From: Thraustochytrium sp. TN22
Taxonomy: Eukaryota; Sar; Bigyra; Thraustochytrida; Thraustochytriidae
Reading direction: 5' to 3'
Length of the DNA stretch: 64,000 bases
Assembly: GCA_013306675.1 (NCBI GenBank)
Contig: JABLUY010000106.1
Span: 1 to 64,000, forward strand
The position numbers were made by a program, and so were the translations under genes. Below, piece by piece: positions 3,327 to 50,367 of this stretch (its first letter is position 1; each line of letters begins with the position of its first letter). The notes beneath the pieces were generated by a model. It worked only from the letters and a program-made list of their open reading frames with translations, was not told the DNA's origin and searched no databases.

Positions 3327-6300
3327 TCATTCAAGTTCTACGTTCTCATACTCGTCCTCTCCTTCCTCGAGCACGCGCTGCGGCTGGTGGTCGAGGTGAC
3401 GCAGGAAGTCTCGTAGCTGGAAGGTGTCCGCGTACTGCGCCTGGTGCATGGCGTCAGGGTCTTCCTCCAAGCGCGCCTCGAGCGTGGGAGGGAGATCAAG
3501 TGCCTGCAGCAGGTCATCCGTGTGCATGGTGCCGACATGCGCGTTGGCATCGTCCACGACCCGGTCGGCGATAAAGCGCTTGAAGCGCTGCAGTTTCAAC
3601 ACACGGTCCTCAATCGTGGCGCGCGCCAGGAGACGGTAGACGTGCACGGCGCGCGTCTGGCCAAGACGGTGCGCGCGATCCATGGCCTGCAGGTCATTCA
3701 TTGGATTCCAGTCGTGGTCCATAAAGATCACCATGCTGGCCCCGGTCAGGTTGAGGCCCTGACCGCCCACCTTGGTGGTGGCCAGCAACAGGTGAATGCT
3801 CGGGTCATGGTTGAAGCGCGTCGCCACCTGCTGCCGTTCGTGCGCTGGCACGGAGCCATCCAGGCGCAGCGCACGCAGCTGGTCATGGAGCGCCGCCTGC
3901 AAGAGCTGCTCTTCGATCAGGTCAAGCGTCGCGGTCCACTGCGCAAAGATGACGGCCTTGGGCGGTGCCGCGGCGCGGTCTTCGTTCACCAGCGCGTCGA
4001 GCTTCGCGTCTACCTGTGCGACCGGTAGAACGAGGTCTCGCAGGAGGTCCAGAAGAGCGCGAAACTTGGCTGACGCCTGCACGCCCTGCTGGTGCGCCGC
4101 GCTCATGTGTGTTTCCAAAAGGCGGCGGTCCAGACGGTTCTTGGCGTGCGCCTTGATGCTGCGCAGGCACAGGAGCGGGTGCGTGGCGGCCATGAGGAGG
4201 CGCGCGGTCCGCGCGAGCGCGCCGGTGTCGTCTGCGGCGGAGGTGGCGCCAGCCACGGCGGCGTTGCCGCCGCCTGTGGAATGGTGGTGGTGGTGGCGCG
4301 CCGCGTCGCTCTCCAGTGCCGCATACAAGCGGGCTTGCACGGGCGGCATGTCCACGACGATGTCCTGAATTGTCTTGGGCGGGAGGTCCGACAGCACTGC
4401 GTCCTTGGTCCGGCGCAGCACAAAGGGCAGCACCTTGCGGCGCAGTGCCTCCAGCGCTTGCGCGGCCTGCTCCGCTACCGCGTCATCGGCGCGCGCCGCG
4501 CGCACCGGCTTGGCCACGCGCGCCGCAAAACCGTCCAAATCGCCCAGGTAGCCCGGCATGAGGAAATCGAAGACGCTCCAGAGGTCCAAGACGTCATTGT
4601 GCACGGGTGTGCCGGTCATGGCCAGCCGGTGTTGCGCGAGCGCTGCCACGCGCTTCACGTGCTCGGCCACCGCCGCGTACGGGTTGCGGATTGCGTGCGC
4701 CTCGTCCAACACCATGGTGCGCCACTGCAGGTTCAGGTTCGCTGCGCCCAACAGGCGGTCCGCGTCGCGCGCTAGCACATTGTACGACATGACCAGAACC
4801 GCGTGCGGCGGCGGGGGCGCGGCGCCCGCCACGTCCAGCGAGCGCGCAAGGTCCTCCAGAACGCCGGCCCGCGCACGGGGCGCGCCCGCGTACGCGAGGG
4901 CGCGCAAGCGGCCCGGGTACCAGCGCTCCACCTCCTCGCACCAGTGGCCGGTGAGTGAGGCCGGGCAGACGACGAGCGAGGCGGAGGCCGCGCCGTCGTG
5001 GGCCCGCGCGGCAACCAAAGTGAGCGCCATGAGCGTCTTTCCGAGACCGAGGTCGTCGCAGAGCGCCCCACAGAGTCCATGGTGCGCGAGGAAGGCAAGC
5101 CAGGCCACGCCCTCACGCTGATAGTCGCGCAGATGAACACCGGCGTCGCGTGCCACGGCTAGGGCACCGAGTGGGTCTTTTTCCTCCTCCGCGTCATGAT
5201 GGACCGCCGGTGCCACACCGGAGAGCAGCGTCGAGAAGAAGGCCTGGCCCTGCTCGCGGCGCGCTGCAGCTGCTGTGACGGCGGCTGGGTCGACGTCAGA
5301 CGCCGGCATGGCGGCGCGGCGCTCGATAGGAGCCGTCTGAACGAGCTGCGAGAGAGTCGCGGCGGCCAGGTCGCGCAGCTCTTTGGACGTCGCGTCGTGC
5401 AGGAGGGGGAGCAGCGGCGGCAGGAGCGCGGCGCCAAAGGGCAAGAAGCGGAGCTCAGGGTCCTGGACGTCGTCCACGAGTTGCGCGACGAGCTGCAGCG
5501 CACGAACGCGGTCCTCCGGGTCGCGACGCGCATCCGTGAGGCGCGAGATGACCGCTACATGTACACTGTTCCACGCCGGCGCCGCAAGGGCATCCCAGCG
5601 CGCGAGGCCGCGCACAAGAGCGGCGAGCGGACCCGGATTCAGCTTGGCCGCGGCGAGCGCCGACTTGGCGTGCGCCAAGAGCCCGGGGATGGCCACTTCA
5701 GTCAGGAGATCGGCGCTTGCGAGGAGGGCGTTGGCGTCGTGCTGTCGGAGGCGGTCCTCCAAGTCGGGCAGGAGCGCCCAGAGACGGGCTGGATCCGGGT
5801 GGAGCTCCGCCAGCCTGCGAAAGAAGCGGCGCGGGAGCGTCTGCGCACCGAGGAGACGTGCCGAGACCTTGGCGAGCGGCTTGTGGAGGCGGCCCGCGCG
5901 GAGGCCGTCCATGAGCGCGATGAGGGCCTCGTCCAGGCGGCCCGCATCCTGGCCGTCCATGTCCTGGCTCAGGGCGGCCCGGACGAGCGGCAACAAAACG
6001 GGCGAGACGGGTTTGGTGCCAGCTGCGGCGGCCGGGTCCGCACGCACAGTGGCCGCCTGGAAGAGGGCGTTCTCCAGCAGGCGGCAGCTCTGGAGCGCAG
6101 CGGCGAGGGCGTCCGCGCAGGCGAGCACGTGGTCGCGCGCCGCGGCCGTGGCGGCGTTCCAGTCGCGCGCGGCCTCGCGAGAGCTTGGCGCAGGCAGTCG
6201 CGGAATCCACTCCCGCACCGCCTGGTCCACGAGCGCGCGCGCGCGGTCCGCCGCGTCATCAGGGACGGGGACGAAGTCGGCGGCCTGCTCGCCCACGTCA

Positions 6301-8395
6301 AGGCTCGCGTCCTGGAAGCGACGCACGAAGAAGGCACAGGCGGCCTGCAGCGCGCTGCGCGCGGCCTGCACGGAGGGCGCCGCGCAGACCCAGGCCCGCG
6401 TGAGCAAGTGCTCGCAGACCCCACGAAGCACGGTTTCGCCAAAAGCACGCGGGGCGCTGGCTGCAGCACGCAGGATGGTCGTTAGCCTCTCCTGGAGAAC
6501 CTGCTGCGGCGTGGGCGGCGAGGACTCATCCTCTGCCTCGGTCTCCTTGAGAAATCCTGCAGCGAGCGCTGGTGCAGCGCCCTGGTGCTCGAGGAGCGGC
6601 GCCAGGGCCTCGTCGGAGCCTGCGAGGACGGCCGTCCGCAGGAGGGCGTCGAGATTGGGTGGCGAGAGCGCTACGGAAGCGGCACGCATCCACACGTCGC
6701 GGTGCGTGCCCCAGAGAACCGGCGCGCGCACAAAGGCGGCGAGCACGTGGGCCGGGTCGACGAGGGGCGCCGACGCATCGGATGGCTTCATCTCGTCGAG
6801 CATGGAGAGTGCGGTGGACGCGCACTGGGGCAAGCCAAGGAGACGATGCAGCACAGCGCGGGCGAGCTGGGTCGGCACGGGTGCCGTGGGCCCGGAGATG
6901 CGATAGAGGCGCGCGGCGAGGCGTGCGACGCTTGCGCTGGTGGCGAGCGCGAGGTCGTCCAGGCGGTCGAGCAGGCTCCAGAGCGCGTCCGGCGCGAGCC
7001 CGAGCAGGCCAAGATTGGCGGCGTCCACGGCGGCGAGTGCCAGGTCGGCGGCCGCGCGGCGCACCTCGTCGTTGTACGCCGCGGAGTCCTCAAGGTCCTT
7101 GGGCTGTAGAAGTGCACCGGCCTGGGGCAGAAAGTCAGGGCGGACCTCGACGTCGGCAAGGTGCAGGAAGCGCGCAGCGAGGAGCGCAGCGTAGCGGCGG
7201 CCCCAGAGCGCCGAAGCGACCTCGAGCGGCGCGGCCTGATTGTCTACGTCGAGCATTCGGCGGAGCGTGGACACGACGCGCGCGCGCCGGTCGACCCCGA
7301 GGCGCGCCGTGACGAGCGCCAGGAGGCGCGCGCAGGACTCGCGCACTGGCGCAACGACGCTGTCGGCGGCGTAGTCGCCAAAGCAGTCCATGCCTAGCAC
7401 GCAGAGACAGCGCACTGCGACGTCCTCGACCCAAGTGATGTCCGCGGCTCGGTGCAGCTCGATCAGCGCCGACGCCGCGCCGTGGCGCGCCTCCCAGCTG
7501 TCGCTGAGCAGGTTCTGCGCGAGCAGGAGCCAGACATCGGGCACCGGGTCCGCGCTCGCGCGCAGCTTGTCCTCGAGCGCCTCTAGGTCGCCATCCAGTC
7601 CCTTTGGCGACGCGGTCAGGGACGAGGCGGCCTCCTCACCGGCCCGCCGGTGCCGCTTGTTGCTCCTGCCGATGCTGCGGTGCTCGTGCACGCGAGCCTG
7701 CGCGATTTCGCGGGCGCTGCGCTTCCTACCGGCGGTGACCGCAGCATTCGCCAGTGCGGATGGGGCGAGATCCTGCGTCTGCAGGAGGCTGTCCTCGTCG
7801 TCGACAGCGAGGTCGAGGTCGGGCCCCAGGCGCAGGCCGTCGTTGGTTGCGAGCCGGAGGCTGCGCAGGAGCTCGGCGCGCTGGCGACCCACGTCGCGTG
7901 TCTCATCATTATCATCATTGTCGTTGTCGTCGTCCTCCTCACCCGCGGCGTTCTTGAGCAAGGGCCGTGCGTGCTCGTAGACCTGCTCCAGGTCGACGGT
8001 CTCGAGGTCGAGCAGGTGCACGCCGGCCGGCAGACGCGTCGCCGGCAGCAGAGGCGCCAGCGCGCGGCCGAGAGCGTCGGCCGCGGCGACGCGCGCCTCC
8101 CAGCGGCCGTGCACGCAGAGGCCGCAGACGGCGGCGAGCAGGGCGCCATCGTCGGCGCAGGCGGGCAGGTCTGCGCCCAGCTGTGCGGCGGCGGCCTGGC
8201 GGGCCGCGGCGCTCCGGGCTGCGCGCGGCGAGCGGAAGCGGTCCCGTCAGTCAGTCAGTCAGTCAGTCGGTCGGTCGGCCCGTCAGTCGGCTGGCCATCG
8301 CCTCTCGCGTTCCGGCCTCTCGCGCAGCGTGCGCTCGTGCGTGCGCTCGTGCGCCGCCACGTACAGTCGAGCAGGTGGACCAGGCGCAGCGCCAT
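3327..8395 (-). CDS. MOT1: Mot1/BTAF1, TBP-associated SWI2/SNF2 ATPase
   Basis: Mot1 uses ATP hydrolysis to strip TATA-binding protein from promoters. Two exons are predicted: 8365-8395 and 3327-8218, together 1640 codons in frame. Exon 1 encodes MALRLVHLLD and the splice continues SRSAAARQAAAAQLGAD, which matches the conserved BTAF1 N-terminus (RLxxLLD...RKAAAQQLG). HEAT-repeat sequence fills the N-terminal thousand residues, including DSWEARHGAASALIELH and FGDYAADSVVAPVRESCA, typical of this family. The SNF2 ATPase follows: Walker A DDLGLGKT near residue 1063, DEAH near 1181, LAMTGTPVHND, and the C-terminal helicase lobe with GGQGLNLTGAS and DRAHRLGQ. The tail carries MHQAQYADTFQLRDFL, also seen in Mot1 proteins. 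The start codon overlaps that of the divergent SET gene. Identification is firm; the first exon is inferred. Confidence 0.95.
8219..8364 (-). other. Predicted intron 1 of Mot1 (146 nt)
   Basis: On the minus strand the donor is GACT|GTACGT and the acceptor is GCGCGCAG|CCCGG. Without this splice the main Mot1 frame has no ATG before an upstream stop. With it, ten residues from a strong-context ATG join in phase to the conserved N-terminal helix. The intron contains six or so CTGA units, any of which could serve as branch point. Confidence 0.8.
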
Positions 8396-8399
8396 GATG
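8393..8399. promoter_or_regulatory. Overlapping divergent start codons (Mot1 / SET gene)
   Basis: The sequence GCCATGATGGC holds ATG on both strands: Mot1 at 8395-8393 (minus) and the SET gene at 8394 or 8397 (plus). Both have A at -3 and G at +4 relative to a start codon (for the plus strand, the second ATG). If both are used, each mRNA leader must be transcribed from inside the other gene. Confidence 0.65.
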
Positions 8400-9323
8400 G
8401 CCAAGTCGGCGGCGGCCGCGCTCGCCTGGTGGCCAGCGCTCGTGCGCTGGCTGCTCGCGCAGAACGGAGAGGTGCACCCGCTGCTGCGACCCGGCCCCGC
8501 CGCCCCGCGCGACGACGCCTGCCCAGCCACCGCGGCCGGCCTGGGGCTCTACGCTGAGGGCGCCCTGGACCAGGGCGCTGTGCTCTTCGCACTCCCGCCC
8601 TCCGCCCTCGTGCACGGCGCCGACCTCTTCGAGCTCGCCGAGTGGCTTGTGGAGCAGACCGAGCTCCTCGACTTTGTACGCGCGCAGACGTGGAGGGACG
8701 ATCAGCAGGGCGCAAAGAACGACGTAAAGGAGCGCGACGTGGAGGAGCACGATGTGGAGGACATTGTCAGGCGAGACGAGAGCGACGAAGACGATGACGA
8801 CGGCGAGGACGGCGAGGACGGCGAGGACGACGAGGACGACGAGGACGGAAATGAACACTTTTTGCCGTACGTGGCGAGCCTCCCCGCGTGGAGCGACGAG
8901 GCGCGCATGCCGCTTGGCAATGCCTTTTACGAGGGCGAGCGAGACGAGCTCGTGCGTGACTCGCTGCCGCTCTGGCTTGAGGGCAATGAGGCCACCTGGC
9001 GGCGCGCGCTCGCCGTGGTCAGCAGTCGCATCCACTCCGTCTGGCGGCGTGACATCTTTGGTGACTGGGAGCCAGGCCGTGCGCTGGTACCGTTCGCAGA
9101 CCTCCTCAACCATGGTGACGTCGCCTCTGTGGTTTGCGAGACGCGGCGCAGCGACGGCTACTTTGTCTGCACCACCTCACAGCCCGTACCTGCTGGCCGC
9201 CAGCTCCTCGTCCGCTACGGCGATGCCAGAGCGACTGCAGACGGGCTTCGGTCAACGTATGGTGATCTTTATGAGTTGCAAGCGGCAAGCGGGCACGAGC
9301 AGGCAAGGGACGAAACATTATAG
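8394..9323 (+). CDS. SET-domain protein methyltransferase, SETD6/RLSMT-like, short
   Basis: A 309-residue protein related to the SETD3/SETD6/Rubisco-LSMT class of lysine methyltransferases. The N-terminus WPALVRWLLAQNGEV...GLGLYAEGALDQGAVLFALP is the typical first SET segment. Residues about 114-145 are an Asp/Glu-rich low-complexity insert. Then come FLPYVASLPAW, the I-SET helices, and the catalytic core LVPFADLLNHGD followed by the substrate-channel motif LLVRYGD. The protein ends about 30 residues later, so the Rubisco-substrate-binding helical domain usual for this class is missing. Two adjacent ATGs at 8394 and 8397 start it; the frame is open further upstream only as antisense to Mot1. 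A missed 3' exon is possible. The substrate is unknown. Confidence 0.8.
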   Translation: MMAKSAAAALAWWPALVRWLLAQNGEVHPLLRPGPAAPRDDACPATAAGLGLYAEGALDQGAVLFALPPSALVHGADLFELAEWLVEQTELLDFVRAQTWRDDQQGAKNDVKERDVEEHDVEDIVRRDESDEDDDDGEDGEDGEDDEDDEDGNEHFLPYVASLPAWSDEARMPLGNAFYEGERDELVRDSLPLWLEGNEATWRRALAVVSSRIHSVWRRDIFGDWEPGRALVPFADLLNHGDVASVVCETRRSDGYFVCTTSQPVPAGRQLLVRYGDARATADGLRSTYGDLYELQAASGHEQARDETL

Positions 9324-9761: not shown

Positions 9762-10637
9762 ATGAGCACCGGGGCCGGGCGCAGCACGTACGACTACGGG
9801 TACACGGACGACCTGGAGGCGAACAAGCCGCTGCGCGGGCGGCGCGATGATGGGGACGATCAGGTGCCGCTTGCGGAGCCCGTGCGCGTGAGCGGGTACC
9901 ACCAGGGCGGAGGCGGGTACGCATCGACGGCGATGGGCGACGGCGGCGACGACCTGGCGCAAGCGATCGAGGCGTACGACGTGCAGGTGCGGCACGGCTT
10001 CGTGCGCAAGGTGTTCGGGATCCTGACCGTGCAGCTGGCCGTGACCTTTGGCTGGGTGCTGGTCTGCACGCTGCACGAGGGCACGCGCGTGTACATGCGC
10101 GAGAACGCGACCACGCCGCTGGTGCTGGGCATGGTGCTGCCAATTGCGGCCATGCTGGGCTTTTGCTGCTGCGCGGACGGCGGACGGCGGTTCCCGATCA
10201 ACTACCTGCTGCTGGCCCTGCTCACGGTCGGCGAGAGCCTGATCCTCGGCGTGGTGTCGGCCAGCACGCCGCCCGAGGCGGTGTCCACGGCCGTGGGCAC
10301 CACCGTCGCCATCGTGGCTATGCTCGTGCTCTTCGCGAGCCAGACCAAGTACGACTTCACGGGCGCCGGCCCGTACCTGGCCATGGCGCTCTGGACCATG
10401 ATCATGTACGCCTTCATCGGCAGCCTCTTTGGCTTCGGCGGCGGCCGCGTCTACGCCTTTGTCGGCACGCTCGTCTTCTCTGCCTACCTCATTTACGACG
10501 TGCAGCTCATCATCGGCGGCAAGCACAAGCAGCTCTCCATCTCCGTCGACGACTACGTCATGGCCAGCGTCGCAGTCTACCTCGACATTATCAACCTTTT
10601 CGTCTACATCCTTCAGCTCGTCAGCGATCGCAACTGA
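9762..10637 (+). CDS. Lifeguard / Bax inhibitor-1 family membrane protein (TMBIM)
   Basis: A 291-residue protein of the BI-1/Lifeguard family, multi-pass proteins of ER or Golgi membranes that modulate calcium leak and cell death. A hydrophilic N-terminus (about 75 residues) precedes the conserved entry sequence VQVRHGFVRKVFGILTVQLAVTF, then seven hydrophobic segments. Family signatures are present: FASQTKYDFTG before the sixth helix, FSAYLIYDVQLIIGG after it, and the C-terminal LDIINLFVYILQL. The Asp pair in YDVQ and in the last loop corresponds to the pH/calcium-sensing aspartates of the family. It reads in the same direction as the SET gene upstream and the TTL gene downstream, with about 230 bp to the latter. 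Confidence 0.95.
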   Translation: MSTGAGRSTYDYGYTDDLEANKPLRGRRDDGDDQVPLAEPVRVSGYHQGGGGYASTAMGDGGDDLAQAIEAYDVQVRHGFVRKVFGILTVQLAVTFGWVLVCTLHEGTRVYMRENATTPLVLGMVLPIAAMLGFCCCADGGRRFPINYLLLALLTVGESLILGVVSASTPPEAVSTAVGTTVAIVAMLVLFASQTKYDFTGAGPYLAMALWTMIMYAFIGSLFGFGGGRVYAFVGTLVFSAYLIYDVQLIIGGKHKQLSISVDDYVMASVAVYLDIINLFVYILQLVSDRN

Positions 10638-10866
10638 GGGGGACGTCTTTTCACATAGAAAGAGCCATCATCGCCACTTCAGATACTCATCTGCATCTTC
10701 TCTTCTCCCTTGGCTCTGCCGTTGCATGTCACGCTTGTGAGTCGCTCATGATCTTGTTGAAGACCCCAAGCACGCTCTCACGACTGCCTAGTGCTCGCGT
10801 CTGCTCACGTCTTGCTCGCGTCTCTACTAGCCTACTTTGACCAAAAAGGCAGAACGCCATGGCGCG

Positions 10867-11346
10867 ATGCTGCGGCGCTTGGTCTGGGGCGGCAGCGGCA
10901 GCGGCGAGGACGAGGACGAGGAGGACAGCGAGGAGTGGGAGACCGGCTCGGAGTCCTCGCACTCCTCCTCGCGGACGTCCGGCGCGGCGACCGAGGGCGG
11001 CGCCGGCGACCAGGACCCGGGCGGCGCCCATGGCGCTGTGGACCTGGAGCGGGCCAGCGCTGGCGCCGCGGCCGCCGCAGAAGGCGCGGAAGGCGCGGGT
11101 GCGGCGGCGGTGGCGGGCGAGCCGGCGCAGCTAGTTGAAGCGGCCGCGGACGAGCGGACGCAGCGAGCAGATGAGGAGGAGGAGGCGCGGCAACGGGCGG
11201 CCTCGGCCGTCTCGCAGGCTGATGACGTCAGGCTGCGGGCATCATCTTCCACATCGTCGGATGCGCAGGAAAGGACCACGCGGGGAAGGACAGCATCCTC
11301 CTCCTCCTCATCATCATCATCATCGTCGTCGTCGTCGTCATCATCG

Positions 11347-11385
<39 letters not shown>

Positions 11386-14300
11386 CCGCGCACTTCGTCC
11401 TCGCCGTCGTCGTCGTCGATGGACCTGGAAAAGGGCGCTCGACGCCGGCGCAGAGGTTCCAGCTCGTCGGAAAGCTCGTCGAATAGCTCAGGGTCGAGCT
11501 CGAGCTCTGATTCGGCAACGAGCCCGAGCCTGTGGCTGACGCTCAAGATGCTGATCACGTGGCGCTGCGCCGCGGTGACGGCCTGTCTGAGCATTGTACT
11601 CTTGGAGCACCTGGTGCTGCACTGGACGCTGCCGGTGCAAGTAGGGCTCGGGTCGATTGGCTCGATCGGATCTCTGGGGTCTGGTCCGGGGCTCGGACTG
11701 GGCCTGCTGGAGCTCGGGTCGGGGTCGTCAGGACGCAGCGGGCGTAAGTTCTCGAACGTGGGGTTCGACTTTGATCCAGCGCTAAGCGCGGAGCGCGCGC
11801 TGCCGTGGCGCGAGTTCAAGGAGAAACTGCGCGTGCACAAGTACAACCACACACAGCAGGTGGCGCGGCGGCGCGCGGAGCTGGCGCGTGACGTGTCGCG
11901 CCCGGTGGGCAAGGGCAAGCGGCGCAGCTTCGGGTGCCTGCGCGAGGGGTGCCGCGGACTGGAAATTGAGGACATGCTGGACCGGGGATGGAGCATGCGG
12001 TTCAAGTCGTGCATGGTGAACGGCACGCGCGACTACAAGGACATCAACTACCACCTGACGGTGCTCATGGCGGACACGACGAACCTGAACCACCTGCAGC
12101 AAGTGCGGCCGGACCTGCTGGACAAGATCATCAAAAAGTACGAGGGCTCGACGTACGTGACGGCGTTCGAGGGCGGCGACGCCATCGGCGGGAACAAGGG
12201 CCAGCAGCTGCGGACGAAGATGCGGTTCGCCAAGGCGCACAAGTGCAAGTACAACGACCTGGGCCTGCAGCCGCCGCAATATCGGCTGTACCTGGAAGAG
12301 GAGTGCAGCGACCTTGAGGCGCTGGACGGGCGCGGCGCCGGGCTGACGTGGCTGCTCAAGCCGGAGGCCGGGTCGCAGGGGCAGGGCATCACGTTCCACG
12401 CGACGGTGGAGGATGTGCGGCACAAGCGGCCAGAGTTCTTTCCGTGCCGCGAGCAGCGCGAGCTGCCGGCAACGCAGCGCGCGCTGGTCCAGCAGTATAT
12501 CGAGCGGCCGCTGCTGCTGCACCAGTGCAAGTTTGACGTGCGCGTGTACATGCTGGTGGCGCACTCGGCGCCGTGGGTGGTCTTTTACCATGAGGGGTAC
12601 CTGCGTCGGTCGCTGTGGACGTACTCGCCCATGAGCAAGGACCGCAAGGTATACCTGACGAACACGCACTTTCAGAGTATGAAGCCCGGGTTCAAGCTGT
12701 CGGACCACGTGTGGCCTTTCGACTCGTTCCAGTCGTACCTGAGCGACAAGGGCGTGACGGGCGCGCACTACGTGGATAGCATTTTGAATCCGTACATTCG
12801 CGCAGTGACCGAGTACGTCTTTCGGAGCGCGCAGCGCAAGATCACGCCGCGGCGGGGCTCGTACCAGATCACGGGGCTGGACTTTATGATCGACGAAAGC
12901 TTTCACGTTCACTTCATTGAGGCGAACGGGTACCCAGGCTTCACGTGGAGCATCAACTTTGACTCGCGGCGCATGATCGAGACGTTTCTGGATCTGGTGG
13001 TGGAGATCAACGAGCAGCCCGAGCCGTTCCGTCTGCTGCGCGCGGGCGACCGCTTCGCGGAGTGGCAGATGGTGTTCTCGGAGGTGGACGAGGCGGCCAG
13101 CGGCGCCGCGTACGACCCGTGTGAGGAGTTCAAGGACAACTACGCGCTGACGGCGCCCTTGAGGCAGGCGAATCGGCTGTTCGCGCAGATCAGCGGCACG
13201 CACAAGGGGGCGTCCACGGCGGCCTTTGACGACACGGACCGCTTCGTGGCACGCGTGCCTGGCTGGCGGTACCTGGGCGGGGAGCGGGGCGACACGTACG
13301 CGACCCGGGCGGCCTTCGCGCAGGCGGCGTGCCCGAGCACCTCGTATGAGCTTTTGCGCGTGGAGCCGCGCACGTTCCGACTGTACGAGAAGGCGGAGTG
13401 CGAGCGGTTCTTCGGCGCGGCATCCGCTTCCTCGGCCTCGTCATCTTCGTCCGGGGCGCGGTCATACGCAGCACTGCACGTGGAGGGCGCGGGCGGCGGT
13501 GGTTTGGGCGCGCCGGGCGTGGAGGCAGACGAGGAGGTGTACTTTGCGTCTGCGGCGGACATGCGCGAGGACGCGGGGCTGTATCCGTGCCGCGCGAGCG
13601 CGGAGCGCGTGTGGCTGGCGCGCGAGCTGCTGGGCGACCCGCTTTTGCTGGACGTGGCGAGCCTACGGCGCGCGGAGATGATCAAGCTGGAGTTCGATGA
13701 GGGCGAGTCGACGCAGGAGCGGCGCAAGAGCGCTGCGGCCAAGGCGCAGGAGCTGGAGCTCATCAACCCAGCGAACGCGCTGTACGAGGAGCTGGCGGCG
13801 CGAGAGATCGCCGGCAAGCGTCTGCTGGTGCAGTACGAGGTGCGCGCCTATCTGCTGGTCGCCTCGGCCGGGCCCCTGATGGCATTCTACCACGACGGGT
13901 ATCTCCGTTCGGTGCGCCCGGTGGCGGTGCGCGGCGAGCGCGTCGGGTTCCGGCGCGACGAGCACGTGCTGACGATGGACAGTTTCCAGTACTACTTGGC
14001 GTCGGAGCAGCTGACCGGGCCGCACTACGTGAGCAGCGTGCTGCGGCCGTACCTGCGCAAGGTGATGGAGTTTGCGTTGCAGAGCGCGCGGCCGCACATG
14101 GAGCGGCTGGGCGCGAACCTGACGCAGGAGGCGCAAGAGGCCGCGGACCAGGGCACGCGCGAGCGGTACCACCATCAGCTGTTCGCCTTCGACTTCGTGC
14201 TGGACAAGCGTTTCCGCGTACACCTGGCGGGCGTGAGCGGCGATCCGGACAACGCGGAGGCGATCTTGCCCTTGGAGGCGCTGCGCGGCGAGGACTCGCC

Positions 14301-14832
14301 CTCGGTCGAAGTGCGCGAGGTGCTGGAGCGGCTGGCGCAGCAGCGGCGGGAGCTGGTGTTGGAGCTGGCGGCCGCGCCGGCGGCCTTTGCTCGCATGCGG
14401 TACGGCGACGACTACGGCGGCTTCACGCTTGTGCACAGCGAGATGGAGGCCGTCCGGTACGGGCGGCGATACTCGCCTTGCGGCCTCTTCGGCAAGGACG
14501 CGCAGCCCTTTGTGAGCGCCGCCCAGCTCAAGCGCACGGCGGATCTGCAGAATTTCAGCGAGAAGCAGCGCGTCTCGCACAAGCGTGAGATGGACAAGTA
14601 CGTCAAGAAGCGCTGGGCCTCGTGCAAGCTGCGGTCCTCCAAGGAGGCCAAGGAGGCCTGCATTTACGGCGAGATCGCCTACCGCTACATGGTCTACGTG
14701 CAGAAGGAGCGCGTCCCGTACGAGCCCAACTTCGTCACCGACCGCATCCACGAGCTCATGGGCCTCCATCCTGGGCCTCAGCTGCCTCAGTGGAAGCTTG
14801 AGGTCGCCAAGAAGCGTCGCGCGGAGGGCTGA
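10867..14832 (+). CDS. Membrane-anchored tandem tubulin-tyrosine-ligase-like (TTL) protein
   Basis: A 1321-residue protein with two TTL-type ATP-grasp regions. The N-terminal 215 residues are acidic and disordered, with 30 consecutive serines at 144-173. A basic cluster GARRRRRG is followed by one hydrophobic segment at about 229-253, predicting a type II anchor with the bulk outside the cytosol. The first TTL region (about 365-720) has KPEAGSQGQGI, FDVRVYMLV, LTNTHFQ and GLDFMIDESFHVHFIEANGYPG, so its ATP- and metal-binding residues look intact. The second (about 960-1150) keeps YEVRAYLLV and FAFDFVLD but has LAGVSGDP where Glu and Asn should be, so it is probably inactive. Sequons such as NHT and NGT follow the anchor. 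The first ATG is chosen. Family members add Tyr, Glu or Gly to tubulin; the substrate here is unknown. Confidence 0.85.
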
Positions 14833-17571: not shown

Positions 17572-18774
17572 ATGTCCGTGGACGAGTTCGGCCGCGATGA
17601 GAACGGCGATGTCGGCCAGGCGAGCCTCGAGGACTCGAACATTGCCGGCATTGGCTCCAAGGAGAACCGCGACCTCCGCAAGATGGCCGCCGGCACGGAC
17701 CCGGCCCTGCGCGGCGCCGGCAGCAAGGTCGGCATCGAGGTGTGGCGCGTGGAGAACAAGCGCACCGAGGCCGACACCCCGGACTTCGGCATCGCCCGCA
17801 TCAAGGAGGAGGACTACGGCTCGTTCTTCACGGGCGACTCGTACATCGTCATGAACACGTACCGCGTCAAGGACGAGAACGGCAAGCTCACGGACAAGCT
17901 CGCGTGGGACCTGCACTTCTGGCTCGGCAACGAGTCGTCCCAGGACGAGATCGGTGTCGCCGCCTACAAGACGGTCGAGATCGACGACCTCCTCGATGAC
18001 GGCCCTATTCAGCACCGCGAGCTCCAGGGCTCGGAGAGCCGCCTCTTCCAGTCCTACTTCAAGGAGATCATGTACCTGGCCGGCGGCCACCCGTCGGGCT
18101 TCCGCTCGGTCAAGCCGGAGGAGTACGTGCCGCGCCTGCTCATGATCCGCCGCACCAAGCGCACCACCCGCGCCTTTGAGATCCCGGTCGCGGCCTCCAA
18201 CATGAACCACGGCGATGTCTTCGTTCTCGACGCCGGCCTCAAGGTGTACCTGTGGGTTGGCGAGGAGGCCAACGCCTTTGAGAAGTCCAAGGGCGCCAAC
18301 ATGCAGAGCAACGTCGTCGCCTCGCGCAACGGCAAGGCCACCAAGGTGAACATCGTCGACGATGACTTCTGGTCGATCCTCGGCGGCTCCATCGACGACG
18401 TGCGCCCGGCCGACCAGCCCTACCTGCTCTCGGAGGACGAGGCTGGCAAGGATGAGGCCCTGGACGTCGACTCGATCAAGCTCTTCCGCATCTCGGACGC
18501 CTCGGGCTCCATCAAGATGACCAAGGAGCACGAGGGCCAGGTCAAGTGGGACATGCTCGACCCGTCGGACGTCTTCCTGCTGCACGCCAACGTCGGCATC
18601 TGGGTCTGGGTGGGCAACGGCGCCTCCCGCGAGGAGAAGTCCAAGTGCATGGCCTTCGCCGACAAGTACATTGCCGACAACGGCCTCAACAAGCACATCC
18701 CGGTTACCCGCATCCTCCAGGCCAAGGGCCAGGACAAGGTCGACATGATCTTCGGCAACATGGTCACCTACTAA
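17572..18774 (+). CDS. Gelsolin/severin-type actin-binding protein, three repeats
   Basis: A 400-residue protein with three gelsolin-homology repeats, the size of severin/fragmin, which sever and cap actin filaments in a calcium-dependent way in the cytosol. Repeat 1 (about 43-165) shows VEVWR-like GIEVWRVENK, FFTGDSYIVMNTY and LHFWLGNESSQDE. Repeat 2 (about 175-285) has RAFEIPVAASNMNHGDVFVLDAGLKVYLWVG. Repeat 3 (about 310-398) has SIKLFRISDASG, SDVFLLHANVGIWVWVG and the closing helix. The G1-G2 linker carries HPSGFRSVKPEEYVPRLL, as in family members. The ATG at 17572 follows a CAG run; the frame extends upstream without another ATG. Codon use is strongly biased to C-ending codons, suggesting high expression. 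Confidence 0.95.
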   Translation: MSVDEFGRDENGDVGQASLEDSNIAGIGSKENRDLRKMAAGTDPALRGAGSKVGIEVWRVENKRTEADTPDFGIARIKEEDYGSFFTGDSYIVMNTYRVKDENGKLTDKLAWDLHFWLGNESSQDEIGVAAYKTVEIDDLLDDGPIQHRELQGSESRLFQSYFKEIMYLAGGHPSGFRSVKPEEYVPRLLMIRRTKRTTRAFEIPVAASNMNHGDVFVLDAGLKVYLWVGEEANAFEKSKGANMQSNVVASRNGKATKVNIVDDDFWSILGGSIDDVRPADQPYLLSEDEAGKDEALDVDSIKLFRISDASGSIKMTKEHEGQVKWDMLDPSDVFLLHANVGIWVWVGNGASREEKSKCMAFADKYIADNGLNKHIPVTRILQAKGQDKVDMIFGNMVTY

Positions 18775-23236: not shown

Positions 23237-24241
23237 ATGGGCGGCAACCAGGCCAAGGGCGGCAAGCGCTTCAACGTGGCGGTGCTGGGCGCCGCGGGCG
23301 GCATCGGCCAGCCTCTGTCGCTGCTGTGCGCGACGTCGCCGTACGTGAAGCGGCTGCACGTGTACGATGTGGTCCCGGTGGTGAACGGCGTGGGCGTGGA
23401 CCTGGCGCACATCAACACGCCGGTTGAGTGCAAGGGCTTTGCGGGCGACCTCAAGGACGCCGAGGCGTCGGCCAAGACGCTGCGCGAGGCGCTGGCCGGC
23501 TCTGACGTGGTCATTATCCCGGCCGGCGTGCCGCGCAAGCCCGGCATGACCCGCGCCGACCTCTTCAAGATCAACGCCGGCATCGTGGCGGGCCTCGTCG
23601 AGGGTGTTGCCGACGCCTGCCCCAAGGCCATGATCTGCATCATCTCCAACCCGGTCAACGCCACGGTGCCCATCGCCGCCGAGGTGCTCAAGAAGAAGGG
23701 CTGCTATGACAAGCAGCGCCTCTTCGGCGTCTCCACGCTCGACGTCGTCCGCGCGCAGAAGTTCATCGGCGAGAAGGCCAACATCGACCCGGACACTGTC
23801 GACGTCACCGTCATCGGCGGCCACTCCGGCGTCACCATCCTGCCGCTGCTCTCGCAGATCAAGCCCTCCGTCACGCTCTCGCAGGAGGACGTGGCCGCGC
23901 TCACCACGCGCATCCAGAACGCCGGCACCGAAGTCGTCGAGGCCAAGGCTGGCGGCGGCTCCGCCACGCTCTCCATGGCGTACGCTGGCTACCGCTTCGC
24001 CGCCTCCGTCATGGCCGGCCTTCGCGGCGAGTCCAACGTCATCGAGTGCGCTTACGTGCCCAGCGACCTCACCGACCTCGAGTTCTTCGCCTCCAAGGTC
24101 CAGCTCGGCCCCAACGGCGCTGAGAAGATCATCCCCTTTAAGGATCTCTCCGACTTCGAGAAGAAGAAGCTCGAGGAGGAGGTCAAGGCCGAGCTCGCGC
24201 AGAGCATCAAGCAGGGCGTCGACTTCGTCGCCTCCCTCTAA
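23237..24241 (+). CDS. MDH: Malate dehydrogenase (NAD-dependent)
   Basis: A 334-residue malate dehydrogenase, interconverting malate and oxaloacetate with NAD. The Rossmann nucleotide motif is GAAGGIGQP at about 18-26, followed by the family's [27 protein letters not shown]. Substrate and catalytic residues are visible: [13 protein letters not shown] (substrate-loop arginines), NPVNATVP, the RVRAQKFI-equivalent [10 protein letters not shown] and catalytic His in [10 protein letters not shown]. It resembles the mitochondrial/glyoxysomal MDH branch rather than the animal cytosolic one. Only 11 residues precede the core, so no transit peptide is evident, and the C-terminus VASL is not a PTS1 signal. 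It may be cytosolic, or the targeting exon may have been missed. Confidence 0.96.
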
Positions 24242-24799: not shown

Positions 24800-25498
24800 T
24801 TACTCAGCAGCAGCAGCATCAGCCGGGGCGGTTTCTGGAGCCGCCTCCGCAGCTTCCTCGGCGGGCGCTGGCGAGGCGGCACCCTCGGCGGCGGCCGGCG
24901 CCGCACCAGCGCCCGCCTTGGCGGCGGCGCCCTTCTGCACGGGCATGAAGAGCTTGAACTCGGGCGGCAGCTCGTCCTCCGAGTACAGGCGGTCGGAAAA
25001 GTAAATTCGCCGGATACGGCAGTTCGCGTGGATCTGCACGCGCAGCGTCTCGATGTAGTTGGTGCCGTAGGCGCGGCGGCAAAAGTCGCTCAGGTTGAAC
25101 TGGATCTGGTTCCAGCCCTCGTCCAGGCGCATCGGCATGGTGCAGATGAACGGCTTCACGCGCGTGCTCGACTGGTAGTTGCTCGCGCGGAAGCGCCGCC
25201 GCACATTCTTGTCATCCAGGATCTGCACCTCGAAAGTAAAGTACTTCTTCAGGTTCTTGATGATCATCACCAGGAACGGCAGCTTGATGCCCAGCGTCTT
25301 CTTCGCCTCCGCCGGGCACGTGATATAGTTGGTGCTCACGTTCGTGCCGATAATCTCCAGCACGCTGGACTGGATGTCCATGTCCGTGATGCGCTTGATG
25401 TGCCCATTGCGCACCTGCTTGTCCCAGATCTGCAGCGGCTTGCTGCCGATGCTGTACAGGATCGACAGGAACCCCGACTGGTACGTGTTGCGGAACAT
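24800..25498 (-). CDS. CFAP20: CFAP20 (BUG22/GTL3) with Ala/Glu C-terminal extension
   Basis: A 232-residue orthologue of CFAP20, an axonemal doublet-microtubule inner-junction protein also found in some non-ciliated lineages. Residues 1-188 follow the animal protein almost residue for residue: [56 protein letters not shown] and [20 protein letters not shown]. The start is set at MFRNTY because that is the invariant family start, though the frame runs 30 codons further. The normal protein ends shortly after FKLFMPVQ; here about 40 extra residues rich in Ala, Glu and Pro follow. Presence supports a flagellated life stage. Confidence 0.97.
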
Positions 25499-46429: not shown

Positions 46430-48175
46430 TTACTCCCAAATCTTCACCGTGTTATCCCACGCGCAGGTAGCGACCCAGGAGGGCTCCACAGGATGCCAGG
46501 CCGCGCCTTGCGTGGGCTGCGAGTGCACTCGCAGCTCGCGTAGACGCTTGCACGAGTTCCAGTTCCAAAAGAAGAGCTTGCCGGAGGAGTCGCCCGAGAG
46601 CAGTAGCTTGCCGTTGGGCGAGAAGTCAATGGGCAGCGCAAAGCCGGCGTTGTTGTGACCCGTGAAGCGCTTGGAGCAGTTGCGGAAGCGGTCCCTATAC
46701 TCGTAGGTGATGATCTGATTGTCCATGCTCTGGCACGCGAAAAAGCGCTGATCGGGCGAGATCGTTACAAAGGGCATGCTCTGCTGGGACGCTTCCTGGA
46801 TGTACTTGATGGGCACCGGCGTGTTGAGGTCCCAGACCAGGAGCTTCTTGTCATAGGAGCTGGTCAGGAAGCGACGGCCCTCGTCGAAGAAGGTAACGGT
46901 GTGCACAGCGCCGTCGTGGTGCGCGTAGCGCTGCGTGATCTTGCCCTCACGCAGATCCCATTGCACGATCTGCTTGTTTTCGCAGGCGGCCAGCACAAGG
47001 TTCTCGTCACCCGGCGCGAAGCGCACGCAGTTCGGCACGGACCCGTTGGACAGCGAGATGATGGCCTGGCCCGTTTCCGTGTCCCACAGCCGCAGCGTGC
47101 GGTCGTAGCTGCTCGACAGAAAGCGGTCGCCCTCGCCGTTGAAGGCATGGTCGCGCATCGGCTCCTTGTGGCCGGCGTACGTGCGCATCAGGCCGCGGCC
47201 GCCGCCCAGGCAGCTCTCGTACACCGCCCACATTTTAAGCGTGCCGTCCAGGCTCGACGACAGCAGCATGTGGCCCACCTTGGGAAAGAAGCTGACCTTG
47301 GACACGCCCTTGGTGTGTCCCTTGAACTGCACAAGCAGGCGGTGCGGGATGCCCGACTCGTGGTCCTCGTTTGCGCGCAGCGTGGGCGGCACCTGCAGCC
47401 AGCTGCGGCCCTGGTAGTCGGACTCCGCGCTCCCGTGAAAGCTCGTCGCGGACGCCAAGCGCTCGCCGCGTTCCACGGTGATGTGCTCCTCGCGGTTCTC
47501 GCGCCGCTCCTCGTCGCGTTGCGCGCGCTCGGCCGCCTTGCTGCGCCGCTTCTCCTGGTCCGCCAGGTACTGCTTCTGCTCCTCCGAGACCTTGGGCGGC
47601 ACGATCTCTTCATCGCGCGGCTTCAGGGCCTCCTCCTCGTCGTCCGCCGGCGCCGCCCACAGGCCCTCGCCCGCCAGCCCGCGCTTGAGCAGGTCTGCAT
47701 CCGCGGCGCCGCGCCGCTGACGCTTGCGCCTCCTGCTGCTGCTGCTCGCACCGGTGCTGGCGCCACTGGCACCACCGGCGCCGACCAGGACACTTTCGCT
47801 GCTGCGCATGCGCCTGCGCCCCGGCCCGCCGTACAGCTCCAGGTCGAAGGTGGTCTCGTCCACGGCGGCCTCGCTCACCTGGGCCCTGCGCTGCCCAAAC
47901 GGGTTCACCGGGCCCTCGGCCGGCGCGGTCAGCGCGGCGGCCTTGACATTGTGCGCCAGCGTCGTCGTCGCCGCCGTGTCGAGCGGCCTGGCCAGCGCCG
48001 TCGTCGCGGCGCCCTGCAGGTGCTCCTCGCCCACGTCCACCGCAGGCGCCGACGCCACGCCGCCCCGCGTCCCGCCCTTGGCGGCGGCAGGCGCGGACGC
48101 GGGCGCGGACGCTGGCGCCGCGGCGCCCGCCTCGGACTCGGAGTCGTCCTCGGACGCGTACGCGAGCCCGAGCAT
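46430..48175 (-). CDS. CDC40: Pre-mRNA splicing factor Prp17 (CDC40), WD40 protein
   Basis: A 581-residue Prp17/CDC40 orthologue, a spliceosomal WD-repeat protein needed for the second catalytic step. The N-terminal 240 residues are disordered but carry family motifs: NPFGQRRAQVSEAAVDETTFDLE and a charged helix PPKVSEEQKQYLADQEKRR. Then comes WLQVPPTLRANEDHESGIPHRLLVQFKGHTKGV-type sequence and seven WD repeats to the C-terminus, including LLSSSLDGTLKMW, FLSSSYDRTLRLWD, FLTSSYDKKLLVWD and the closing WVATCAWDNTVKIWE. The length matches other Prp17 proteins. It is divergent from U2AF2, only 305 bp away, which suggests shared promoter control. Confidence 0.96.
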   Translation of the reverse strand: MLGLAYASEDDSESEAGAAAPASAPASAPAAAKGGTRGGVASAPAVDVGEEHLQGAATTALARPLDTAATTTLAHNVKAAALTAPAEGPVNPFGQRRAQVSEAAVDETTFDLELYGGPGRRRMRSSESVLVGAGGASGASTGASSSSRRRKRQRRGAADADLLKRGLAGEGLWAAPADDEEEALKPRDEEIVPPKVSEEQKQYLADQEKRRSKAAERAQRDEERRENREEHITVERGERLASATSFHGSAESDYQGRSWLQVPPTLRANEDHESGIPHRLLVQFKGHTKGVSKVSFFPKVGHMLLSSSLDGTLKMWAVYESCLGGGRGLMRTYAGHKEPMRDHAFNGEGDRFLSSSYDRTLRLWDTETGQAIISLSNGSVPNCVRFAPGDENLVLAACENKQIVQWDLREGKITQRYAHHDGAVHTVTFFDEGRRFLTSSYDKKLLVWDLNTPVPIKYIQEASQQSMPFVTISPDQRFFACQSMDNQIITYEYRDRFRNCSKRFTGHNNAGFALPIDFSPNGKLLLSGDSSGKLFFWNWNSCKRLRELRVHSQPTQGAAWHPVEPSWVATCAWDNTVKIWE

Positions 48176-48341
48176 GGTTGGCCGCGTTCAAGGTCTGCCG
48201 CGAGCGCCGCGCGGCCAAGCGCGGCGCGCCGCATGCAGTCCGGCATCCATCCCGCCACCGCGGACGGCGGCGGCGGCAGAACGCGGCGCGGCAGGCTCCG
48301 CGGCTCGCCCGCCCGCCCGCCCGCCCGCCCGCCCTCGGCGC

Positions 48342-48385
<44 letters not shown>

Positions 48386-48480
48386 TGCTGCGGCCTCGTT
48401 CAAAACCACAAGCAGCAGGTGTTGGAGCTGGCGCAGCCGCAGCCGCAGGCGCTGCAGGCGCAGAGCGCGGTCGCGGCGCG
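48176..48480. promoter_or_regulatory. Bidirectional promoter region, Prp17 / U2AF2
   Basis: This 305-bp segment separates the divergent start codons of two splicing factors. It contains CGCCCGCC repeats (48301-48335) and a perfect GGC run (48345-48382). No TATA-like sequence was seen. The frame of U2AF2 is open through it, but no ATG in frame precedes 48481. Confidence 0.6.
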
Positions 48481-50367
48481 ATGGCGGGGCGCGGGCGCGC
48501 CATGACGCGGCCGGCGTGGATGACGTCGGCCGACCACGGCCCCGGGCGCGCGGCGCCGCAGCTGGACGATCGCCGCCATGGCGGCGGCGGGGAGGGCGAT
48601 GACCGCGGCCGCCGCCGCGACGAGCACAAGCGCGGCAGGTACGAGGACGCGGAGGAGGATCGCAGCGACGACGGCAGCCGCGGCGATGCGAAACGCGCGC
48701 GCAGAGACCGCAGGTCCTCGCACAAGGACAAAAAGGAGAAGAAGGACAAAAAGGACAAGAAGCACAAGAAGGACAAGAAGAGCAAGAAGGACAAGAAGAG
48801 CAAGAAGGAGAGGAAGCGCGACCGCCGCGAGCGCAGCGACAGCCGCAGCCCGAGCCGCAGCCGCAGCCGCAGCCGCAGCCGCAGCCGCAGCCGCAGCCGC
48901 AGCGGCGGCCGCGGCCGCGGCCGCGACGACGACTCGGCAGCATCCAGGTCGCGGTCTCGGTCGCGGTCGGCCTCGCGCTCGCCCTCCCGGTCGCCGTCGC
49001 GGTCTCCTTCGCGGTCTCCCTCGCGGTCGCGGCGTCGCTCCCGGACGCCCCCGCGGTCGAGATCCAGGCGATCCACCTCGGCGTCTCGCGCGCCGGCGGC
49101 CGCCTCGGGCTCCTCCGAGGCCCGGTACCCGCGGCCCGTGCGGTCGCGGCGCAGCAAGCCTACGATGTGGGATGTGAAACCCGAGGACCTGCCGGAGCAC
49201 CTGCGCGCGCAGCTGGCGCTGCGCGCCGCGCCCTCGTCCGCGCAGGCCGGCGGCTCGCTCGCCGTGCGGCGGCTCTTCATCGGCAACGTGGAGCACACCG
49301 ATGAGCGCGAGCTGCAGGCCTTCTTCGACGACCTTGTGCGGCGGGCCACAGGCGATCGCAGCGGCAAGCACCGCGTCATCAACGTATTTGTACACCTGGA
49401 GAAGCGCTTCGCCTACGTGGAGTTCAACTCCGCTGCGCTCACTACGGCCTGTCTCGCCCTGGATGGCGTCGACTTCAAGGGCCGCGGCCTGTCCGTGGCA
49501 CGGCCTAACGAGTACTCGGCGGACGCCGCGCCGAACGACGGCCCGCCGCCGGCCTTGGACCTCTCGCAGGTGAACATCCTCTCGCGCGGTGGTAGTGGCG
49601 GCGGTGGCGGCGGCGGCGGCCCCGGCGGCGGCGGCTCCATCCCGGACAGCCCGGAGAAGATCTTCATTGGCGGCTTGCCGCACGACCTGACGGACGCGGA
49701 GATCACCGAGCTGCTGGAGGCTTTTGGCAAGCTCCAGGCGCTGCACGTTGTGCGCGAGGCATCAGGCCGCAGCAAGGGCTTTGGGTTCGCGCAGTACCAG
49801 GACCCAGCCTGCACCGACCCTGCTGTCGAGGCGCTGAATGGCCTCGTGCTGCGCGGCCGGTCCATCTCGGTGCGCCGCAGCGAGCCGCTTCCGGGCGGTG
49901 CCCGCGTCGAGGCCAGCGCGCTCTCTGGGGCGGCGCTCGCCCAAATGTCGGGCGGCGCGGCGGGCGGGCCGCCGCGCGGCCATGACCCGCGCGGCGGTGG
50001 GCGCCCGGGCAATGGCATTGGCGCCGCCATCGGAACCCCGACCCATGTGCTCGTGCTGCACAATGCGCTCACGGAACAGGACCTCGCGGACAAGGCCGAC
50101 CTCGAGGACATGAGACAGGACATTCGCGAGGAGTGCGTCCAGTTCGGACATGTGAACGACCTCGTGGTCCCGCCGCCCGTCGGCTCCGATCGCCACGTGG
50201 ACGTCCTCGTCCGCTTCTCCGAGGCTCACGAAGCGCTCAAAGCCCTCTTCGCGCTTCGCGACCGCACCTTTGCGGGCCGCACCGTGAGCTGCTCTTTTGT
50301 TAGTGAGGATGTCTTCCAGCAGGCGCTCCGGGCCGAGCGCGCAAGCGGCCGACATGAACAATCATAA
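48481..50367 (+). CDS. U2AF2: U2AF large subunit (U2AF65), 3' splice-site recognition factor
   Basis: A 628-residue U2AF65, which binds the polypyrimidine tract and recruits U2 snRNP. The N-terminus has a Lys-rich block (DKKEKKDKKDKK) and a long RS domain to about residue 205. RSKPTMWDVKPEDL around Trp230 fits the UHM-ligand motif that docks U2AF35. RRM1 (about 260-345) has RRLFIGNVEHTD and RFAYVEF; RRM2 (about 392-470) has EKIFIGGLPHDLT and KGFGFAQYQ; the C-terminal UHM (about 520-612) has THVLVLHNAL, EDMRQDIREECVQFGHV and VLVRFSEAHEALKALFALRDRTFAGRTV-type sequence. RRM1 is preceded by a divergent linker and RRM1-RRM2 are separated by a Gly-rich linker. The first in-frame ATG after the promoter is used. 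Confidence 0.93.
   Translation: MAGRGRAMTRPAWMTSADHGPGRAAPQLDDRRHGGGGEGDDRGRRRDEHKRGRYEDAEEDRSDDGSRGDAKRARRDRRSSHKDKKEKKDKKDKKHKKDKKSKKDKKSKKERKRDRRERSDSRSPSRSRSRSRSRSRSRSRSGGRGRGRDDDSAASRSRSRSRSASRSPSRSPSRSPSRSPSRSRRRSRTPPRSRSRRSTSASRAPAAASGSSEARYPRPVRSRRSKPTMWDVKPEDLPEHLRAQLALRAAPSSAQAGGSLAVRRLFIGNVEHTDERELQAFFDDLVRRATGDRSGKHRVINVFVHLEKRFAYVEFNSAALTTACLALDGVDFKGRGLSVARPNEYSADAAPNDGPPPALDLSQVNILSRGGSGGGGGGGGPGGGGSIPDSPEKIFIGGLPHDLTDAEITELLEAFGKLQALHVVREASGRSKGFGFAQYQDPACTDPAVEALNGLVLRGRSISVRRSEPLPGGARVEASALSGAALAQMSGGAAGGPPRGHDPRGGGRPGNGIGAAIGTPTHVLVLHNALTEQDLADKADLEDMRQDIREECVQFGHVNDLVVPPPVGSDRHVDVLVRFSEAHEALKALFALRDRTFAGRTVSCSFVSEDVFQQALRAERASGRHEQS

Follow-up and report, generated by a model that had tools for sequence, protein, structure and literature searches.

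Can two protein-coding genes on opposite strands begin on the same bases? The question is raised by a 64,000-nucleotide stretch of the genome of Thraustochytrium sp. TN22 (contig JABLUY010000106.1, positions 1 to 64,000, hereafter the window), in which a minus-strand gene for a Mot1-type protein and a plus-strand gene for a SET-domain methyltransferase-like protein appear to diverge from one short site, GCCATGATGGC. The predicted start of the Mot1 coding sequence (8395, minus) and that of SET (8394/8397, plus) are on the same bases, and the two genes probably form a head-to-head pair with zero gap and both starts in use, a reading to which we give roughly two chances in three. In that case translation would begin at the bases around 8394 on either strand, and the leader of Mot1, probably together with the promoter, would have to work inside the codons of another protein. 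Such a pair would leave the known kinds of gene overlap unchanged, and it would offer a clean natural test of the limits that coding places on a promoter and of the mutual hindrance of transcription starts that face each other.

Start codons on the two strands

The 11-mer holds one minus-strand ATG and two plus-strand ATGs in a common frame (Table 1). The sequence-only reading had described ATGs overlapping on opposite strands, each with A at -3 and G at +4. Both ATGs exist, but this context does not belong to both members of the overlapping pair: the plus-strand ATG at 8394, which overlaps that of Mot1, has G at -3 and A at +4, while the plus-strand ATG with A at -3 and G at +4 lies at 8397 and does not overlap, and the two had been merged into one. 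A start of SET at 8394, and with it the overlap, is the natural reading because a scanning ribosome would reach 8394 before 8397, though 8397 has the better context. A at -3 and G at +4 make up the common start context in this genome (20 and 14 of 30 predicted starts, respectively). With the coordinates 8395 versus 8394/8397, the claim that the genes stand head to head with nothing between their coding starts was supported.

The rarity of GCCATGATGGC was considered as evidence and rejected, as the word is common in the 37.9-Mb genome (172 places; 8 for the reversed control). Eight of the other 171 places were examined, and none had a good codon signal on both sides, in a two-sided test that is blind to short first exons, including Mot1 exon 1 here (10 codons, best score 9). 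The oddity of the site lies in how the genes are arranged, not in the word.

The first exon of Mot1

A Mot1-type protein is encoded by the minus-strand open frame 8246-3327. Pfam matches in exon 2 (SNF2-rel_dom, 1.9e-51; Helicase_C, 1.3e-21) placed an SNF2 ATPase at the C-terminal end, and the top PDB match of the protein was chain 7zb5_E, 'Helicase-like protein' (E 7.5e-119), with which the Mot1-specific helical-repeat region also aligned (residues 220-444, i-Evalue 2.3e-8). We take this chain to be Mot1; its N-terminus matches that of yeast Mot1, entered by hand (E 1.2e-23). The frame of exon 2 has no ATG before 7391, which is residue 287 of the spliced protein, and an upstream exon is therefore needed. 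Splicing from 8365 to 8218 gives MALRLVHLLDSRSAAARQAAAAQLG... and a predicted Mot1 protein of 1,640 residues.

This exon was compared with other candidates in a small local search, for which a profile was built from the N-termini of three Mot1 proteins (two entered by hand). The chosen exon 1 joined to exon 2 scored 24.6 bits and exon 2 alone 19.2, a gain of about 5 bits. Of the 215 first-exon candidates considered as far as 9800, 8395/8364/8218 alone combined a donor of the GTRNGT form with a high N-terminal score, and the two remaining candidates with such a donor scored 15.6 and 15.3 bits. When the first 108 residues alone were searched against the PDB, no Mot1 was among the matches.

Splice sites independent of Mot1 were obtained from the Ras-family genes of the genome. 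Eight loci (L076-L083) were inspected, one of which (L082) has no intron in its open frame; the other seven yielded 10 introns, reconstructed from conserved peptides picked by eye. GTACGT, the Mot1 donor, kept the frame in seven of these introns and was the sole frame-keeping choice in five of the seven, while the other three had GTAAGT, GTAGGT and GTGAGT among their donor choices. In 114 kb (the window and 50 kb beyond it), one strand has 20 copies of the hexamer and the other 19, and random 1-kb regions of the window that equalled the Mot1 exon in score and also carried GTACGT numbered 4 of 400. The Mot1 acceptor ends in GCGCAG, and a possible acceptor with the same ending was found in three of the 10 Ras introns. 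The codon score of the Mot1 intron is negative in all six frames. As evidence for the predicted Mot1 start, these splice sites carry more weight than the N-terminal match.

Apart from this locus, GTACGT is apparently the prevailing 5' splice-site hexamer in the Ras introns of the genome, and it might serve as a guide to short first exons elsewhere. The genome search found one full-length copy each of Mot1 and SET; a search of viral contigs gave no relatives of Mot1.

The start of the SET gene

The SET gene was recognized by a Pfam SET match below the cut-off (0.0042, 17.9 bits) and by a split-SET paralogue in the same genome (C266), which matches residues 200-285 with E 6.3e-7; the family with which it was compared is that of the LSMT/SETD3/SETD6-like methyltransferases. 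SET domains carry characteristic GxG-like, NH and Tyr motifs, and all three places appear to be kept here, as read by eye in the translation and alignments (GLGLYAEG, FADLLNHG and LLVRYGD). The frame 8394-9323 has a codon score of +127, against +27 for its nearest competitor among the frames. The score is -16.9 in the 150 nt that precede the SET ATG, and it then rises to +13.7 and +29.7 in the first two blocks of 50 codons. The SET start thus appears to be marked by a dip in codon score over the Mot1 intron, the dip doing part of the work. In place of SET, a gene finder working from codon use reported a frame antisense to it (8439-9125, score 56); it missed SET because the best segment of the SET frame, 7677-9167, overlaps Mot1 by 38%, which is above the 30% allowed by its overlap rule.

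The position of the start was further constrained by the available ATGs. No in-frame ATG lies upstream of SET back to the stop at 7584 (the frame is open to 7587), and the next one downstream is residue 172, past the first SET strand (GLGLY), which starts at residue 49. In one paralogue (L048), a Met stands at a similar distance ahead of the N-terminal helix, and the helix of SET could be aligned to those of the paralogues and of pea Rubisco methyltransferase. A first SET profile gave 10.0 bits for residues 1-90, a score reached by 0 of 1000 full shuffles, and 14.0 for residues 41-130, that is, no gain from the N-terminus. With a second profile, in which paralogue L085 replaced L050 and whose members were thus altered after the result of the first, SET scored 18.5 bits, and 15.4 without residues 1-42, so that the helix contributes some 3 bits, a gain that 42 of 2000 shuffles of these residues reached. 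The earlier statement that the N-terminal fold of the family backs the SET start claims more than this alignment gives. Taken with the Mot1 exon, a Mot1 start at 8395 and a SET start at this site are both likely.

Spacing of divergent neighbours

We surveyed the same 114 kb for divergent (minus-plus) neighbours with a codon-use gene finder, retaining genes that scored at least 90. Eleven minus-plus rows were obtained, one of which paired Mot1 with the next plus gene, the finder having dropped SET for its overlap with Mot1. The 10 others leave 285-6011 bp between coding segments, values that are upper bounds, as short first exons and genes with weak scores escape the finder. The gap between Mot1 and SET is zero, and it would be 175 bp even if exon 1 were discounted. 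Two protein-coding genes stand head to head on opposite strands; a bidirectional promoter in the usual sense has DNA between the starts, and here the coding starts share 2 bp or are separated by 1 bp, the only nearby noncoding DNA being the Mot1 intron. The remark that there is 'no intergenic DNA at all' is overstated, for SET has the 146-bp Mot1 intron, with 29 bp of exon 1 between it and 8394. After Mot1 and SET, the tightest divergent pair found in the 114 kb is separated by 285 bp from coding segment to coding segment (window 48175-48481).

Points against a shared start and alternative starts

A number of observations speak against a pair of coinciding starts, and they concern both genes and their leaders. 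On the Mot1 side, a candidate exon without a common donor (8908/8738) scored 25.1 bits, 0.5 above the chosen exon, and 47 of 400 random 1-kb regions of the window supplied an exon with an equal N-terminal score (17 of 400 reached a domain score of at least 23.9 when the position was also required). The conserved N-terminus recovered through splicing, on which the sequence-only reading had based the Mot1 start, is indeed Mot1-like, but it is not decisive alone. Mot1 could therefore start on another, more distant first exon, even one beyond SET, which would then be nested, on the opposite strand, in the Mot1 intron, and the ATG at 8395 would be there by chance; the modest gain of about 5 bits from exon 1 is compatible with this. 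However, the 8908 candidate has the donor GTCGCG, which is not of the GTRNGT form, and a long Ser-rich stretch, and none of the other candidates with a GTRNGT donor, among exons scored up to 9800, exceeded 15.6 bits. We regard a distant first exon as quite unlikely.

On the SET side, the frame is also coding-like upstream, where it runs antisense to Mot1, and its best segment is 7677-9167 (score 175-177). Codon use alone does not fix the SET start, because the frame becomes positive again upstream, and the score of its first 50 codons (13.7) is above those of only three of 29 other genes, whose range is 1.2 to 50.9. A noncoding exon more may exist in either gene, or SET may begin on a coding exon upstream. 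If SET had such a coding exon or a different start, the two start codons would not both be used, and the N-terminal helix, whose match is weak, would hardly object. The open stretch upstream nevertheless lacks an ATG and the codon signal is negative in the 150 nt before 8394; in addition, the place of GLGLY and the Met of L048 fit the start as predicted. A different start of SET is thus unlikely.

SET is in addition a weak member of its family, its Pfam match falling under the cut-off of 22.4 bits. No Pfam match to the C-terminal Rubisco-substrate-binding domain was found in the 309-residue frame, later exons not having been sought; the gene contains an acidic repeat insert, and its last 100 codons score -4.1, which itself weighs against leaning on codon use. 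These features would suit a SET gene that is decaying or unexpressed, with the Mot1 promoter in formerly coding DNA. Against this, the gene is one uninterrupted frame of 309 codons whose codon use, taken as a whole, is like that of coding DNA, and the three motif places appear to be kept, so we consider decay improbable.

The leaders gave a mixed picture. By 6-mer score over 250 nt, the SET leader (-15) is above five of 29 other leaders. The Mot1 leader (-51) falls between the classes: it scores higher than 28 of 29 antisense 5' coding stretches and lower than 27 of 29 real leaders. Taken as the antisense of SET codons 1-83, it has a GC skew of +0.09, which reaches the upper end of the antisense values (-0.33 to +0.09), and it carries GGGCGG-type boxes at two places, a motif present in 17 of 29 leaders and in 12 of 132 antisense coding pieces. 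When SET was shuffled synonymously, the shuffles matched the 6-mer score of the Mot1 leader (P 0.77), the boxes were not above expectation (P 0.36), and the skew was borderline (P 0.047). The composition of the Mot1 leader thus seems to reflect the SET protein and its codon use, and selection for a promoter is not shown by it. No upstream ATG occurs in the 366 nt ahead of the Mot1 start or in the 631 nt ahead of the SET start; in neither leader did this depletion go beyond that of synonymous shuffles. As a sign of leaders that enter the other gene, it was rejected as being within chance.

Expected transcripts and promoters

With both start codons used, the two transcription starts would point towards each other and not away from each other. 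Whatever the length of either leader, that of Mot1 would start over codons of SET, and that of SET over the first exon and first intron of Mot1. The earlier claims that the Mot1 intron lies within the SET leader region and that the leaders are antisense would then follow from the positions of the coding starts. The primary transcripts would overlap by at least the sum of the two leaders (plus 2 nt with SET at 8394, minus 1 nt with 8397), and the spliced mRNAs by less, because the Mot1 intron is removed. The SET transcription start may be expected within or near the 146-bp Mot1 intron, and that of Mot1 within the first few hundred bases of SET, its promoter lying in SET coding DNA, as there is no noncoding DNA close to the Mot1 start (unless a distant noncoding exon exists). 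We picture both as GC-rich starts in one open stretch at about 8200-8600, firing alternately or in separate cells. The arrangement would not require any special regulation, and the packing may be tight by chance or drift.

A more elaborate proposal is that the overlap is a regulatory switch in which transcription of one gene represses the other. In its hard-wired form, two face-to-face promoters would lie in each other's coding DNA and Mot1, as a remover of TBP, would pick one of them, perhaps acting at its own promoter and tuning itself against the methyltransferase. The geometry allows this if both starts are used, and Mot1/BTAF1 is described as remodelling TBP-DNA contacts at promoters (PMC13075793). 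However, human genes with overlapping 5' starts in use had higher, not lower, mean expression across 73 transcription start site libraries (PMC8076222), and, save for the borderline skew, the leaders bear no sign of selection beyond the codons of SET itself. We consider such a switch highly improbable.

Comparison with known overlapping genes

Should both starts be in use, zero-gap Mot1 and SET would stand at the extreme of a known class. Overlaps of protein-coding genes at their 5' ends, in untranslated regions, coding sequences or both, have been described: 115 partial divergent pairs in a human set, of which 14 (12%) are conserved in mouse (PMC2330155), and 582 human divergent overlapping pairs from start-site data (PMC8076222). 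Unlike in these animal pairs, the coding starts themselves coincide here, so that the overlap would be independent of the start site chosen, and the overlap is predicted from sequence, not from transcripts.

Transcripts of the microsporidian Encephalitozoon cuniculi often begin in upstream genes, whereas those of Antonospora locustae rather end in downstream genes (PMC3629993, which cites Williams et al. 2005). There, overlap is a trait of highly reduced genomes, whereas the ten other divergent neighbours around the present pair are 285-6011 bp apart. Head-to-head pairs of Plasmodium falciparum (PMC7278070) have a median distance of 548 nt, and few have overlapping 5' untranslated regions. Bidirectional promoters of that species resemble Mot1/SET in having head-to-head genes with close starts, but their starts are mostly back to back, while those of Mot1 and SET would face each other. 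In a small search of titles and abstract openings in the open-licence literature, the exact arrangement of coinciding starts was not found named.

Features, neighbouring genes and repeats

The features of the locus and its neighbours are listed in Table 1. The neighbouring genes together point to a nuclear eukaryotic genome.

Table 1. Predicted features at and around the Mot1/SET start site (window coordinates)
Feature	Position	Strand	Remarks
GCCATGATGGC 11-mer	8391-8401	both	predicted start site on both strands, read from the sequence
Mot1 start codon ATG	8395-8393	minus	A at -3, G at +4
SET first ATG	8394-8396	plus	G at -3, A at +4; 2-bp overlap with Mot1 ATG as CATG
SET second ATG, in frame with first	8397-8399	plus	A at -3, G at +4; 1 bp off Mot1 ATG, without overlap
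Mot1 exon 1, coding part	8365..8395	minus	MALRLVHLLD and 1 nt; codon score +8.5
Mot1 intron 1, 146 nt	8219..8364	minus	GTACGT...GCGCGCAG; noncoding DNA usable by SET
Mot1 exon 2 (helical-repeat part and SNF2 ATPase)	3327..8218	minus	Pfam and PDB matches
SET-domain methyltransferase-like gene, 309 residues	8394..9323	plus	read as one exon; Pfam SET, paralogue, codon score
SET leader/promoter region	8219..8393	plus	Mot1 intron and 29 bp of exon 1; true leader may extend into exon 2
Mot1 leader/promoter region	8396..8645	minus	antisense to SET codons; GGGCGG/GGCGGG at -212, -205, -204, -110, -106
GTCA tetranucleotide array	8246..8288	none	nearly all inside Mot1 intron
Bax1-I family gene	9762-10637		Pfam-type match
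TTL (tubulin ligase) gene	10831-14832		Pfam-type match
Gelsolin-repeat gene	17572-18774		Pfam-type match
Lactate/malate dehydrogenase gene	23237-24241		Pfam-type match
CFA20 gene	24800-25498		Pfam-type match

Arrays of the GTCA kind occur at 24 listed places in the genome (56 overlapping matches); the reversed control (54 matches) is uninformative, since reversing the word gives its own complement in a shifted register. The idea that the array is a set of initiator sites was set aside, though not disproved. A SET match on another contig (C288) proved spurious, an acidic low-complexity alignment to a frame that presumably encodes a PRPP-synthetase. Within SET itself, a GAC/GAG-type repeat (8719-8858) encodes the acidic stretch and takes 51 of the 52 further matches listed, the other one falling on the GTCA array. 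On the Mot1 strand, the GTCA array reads as repeated CTGAC, which resembles a branch point.
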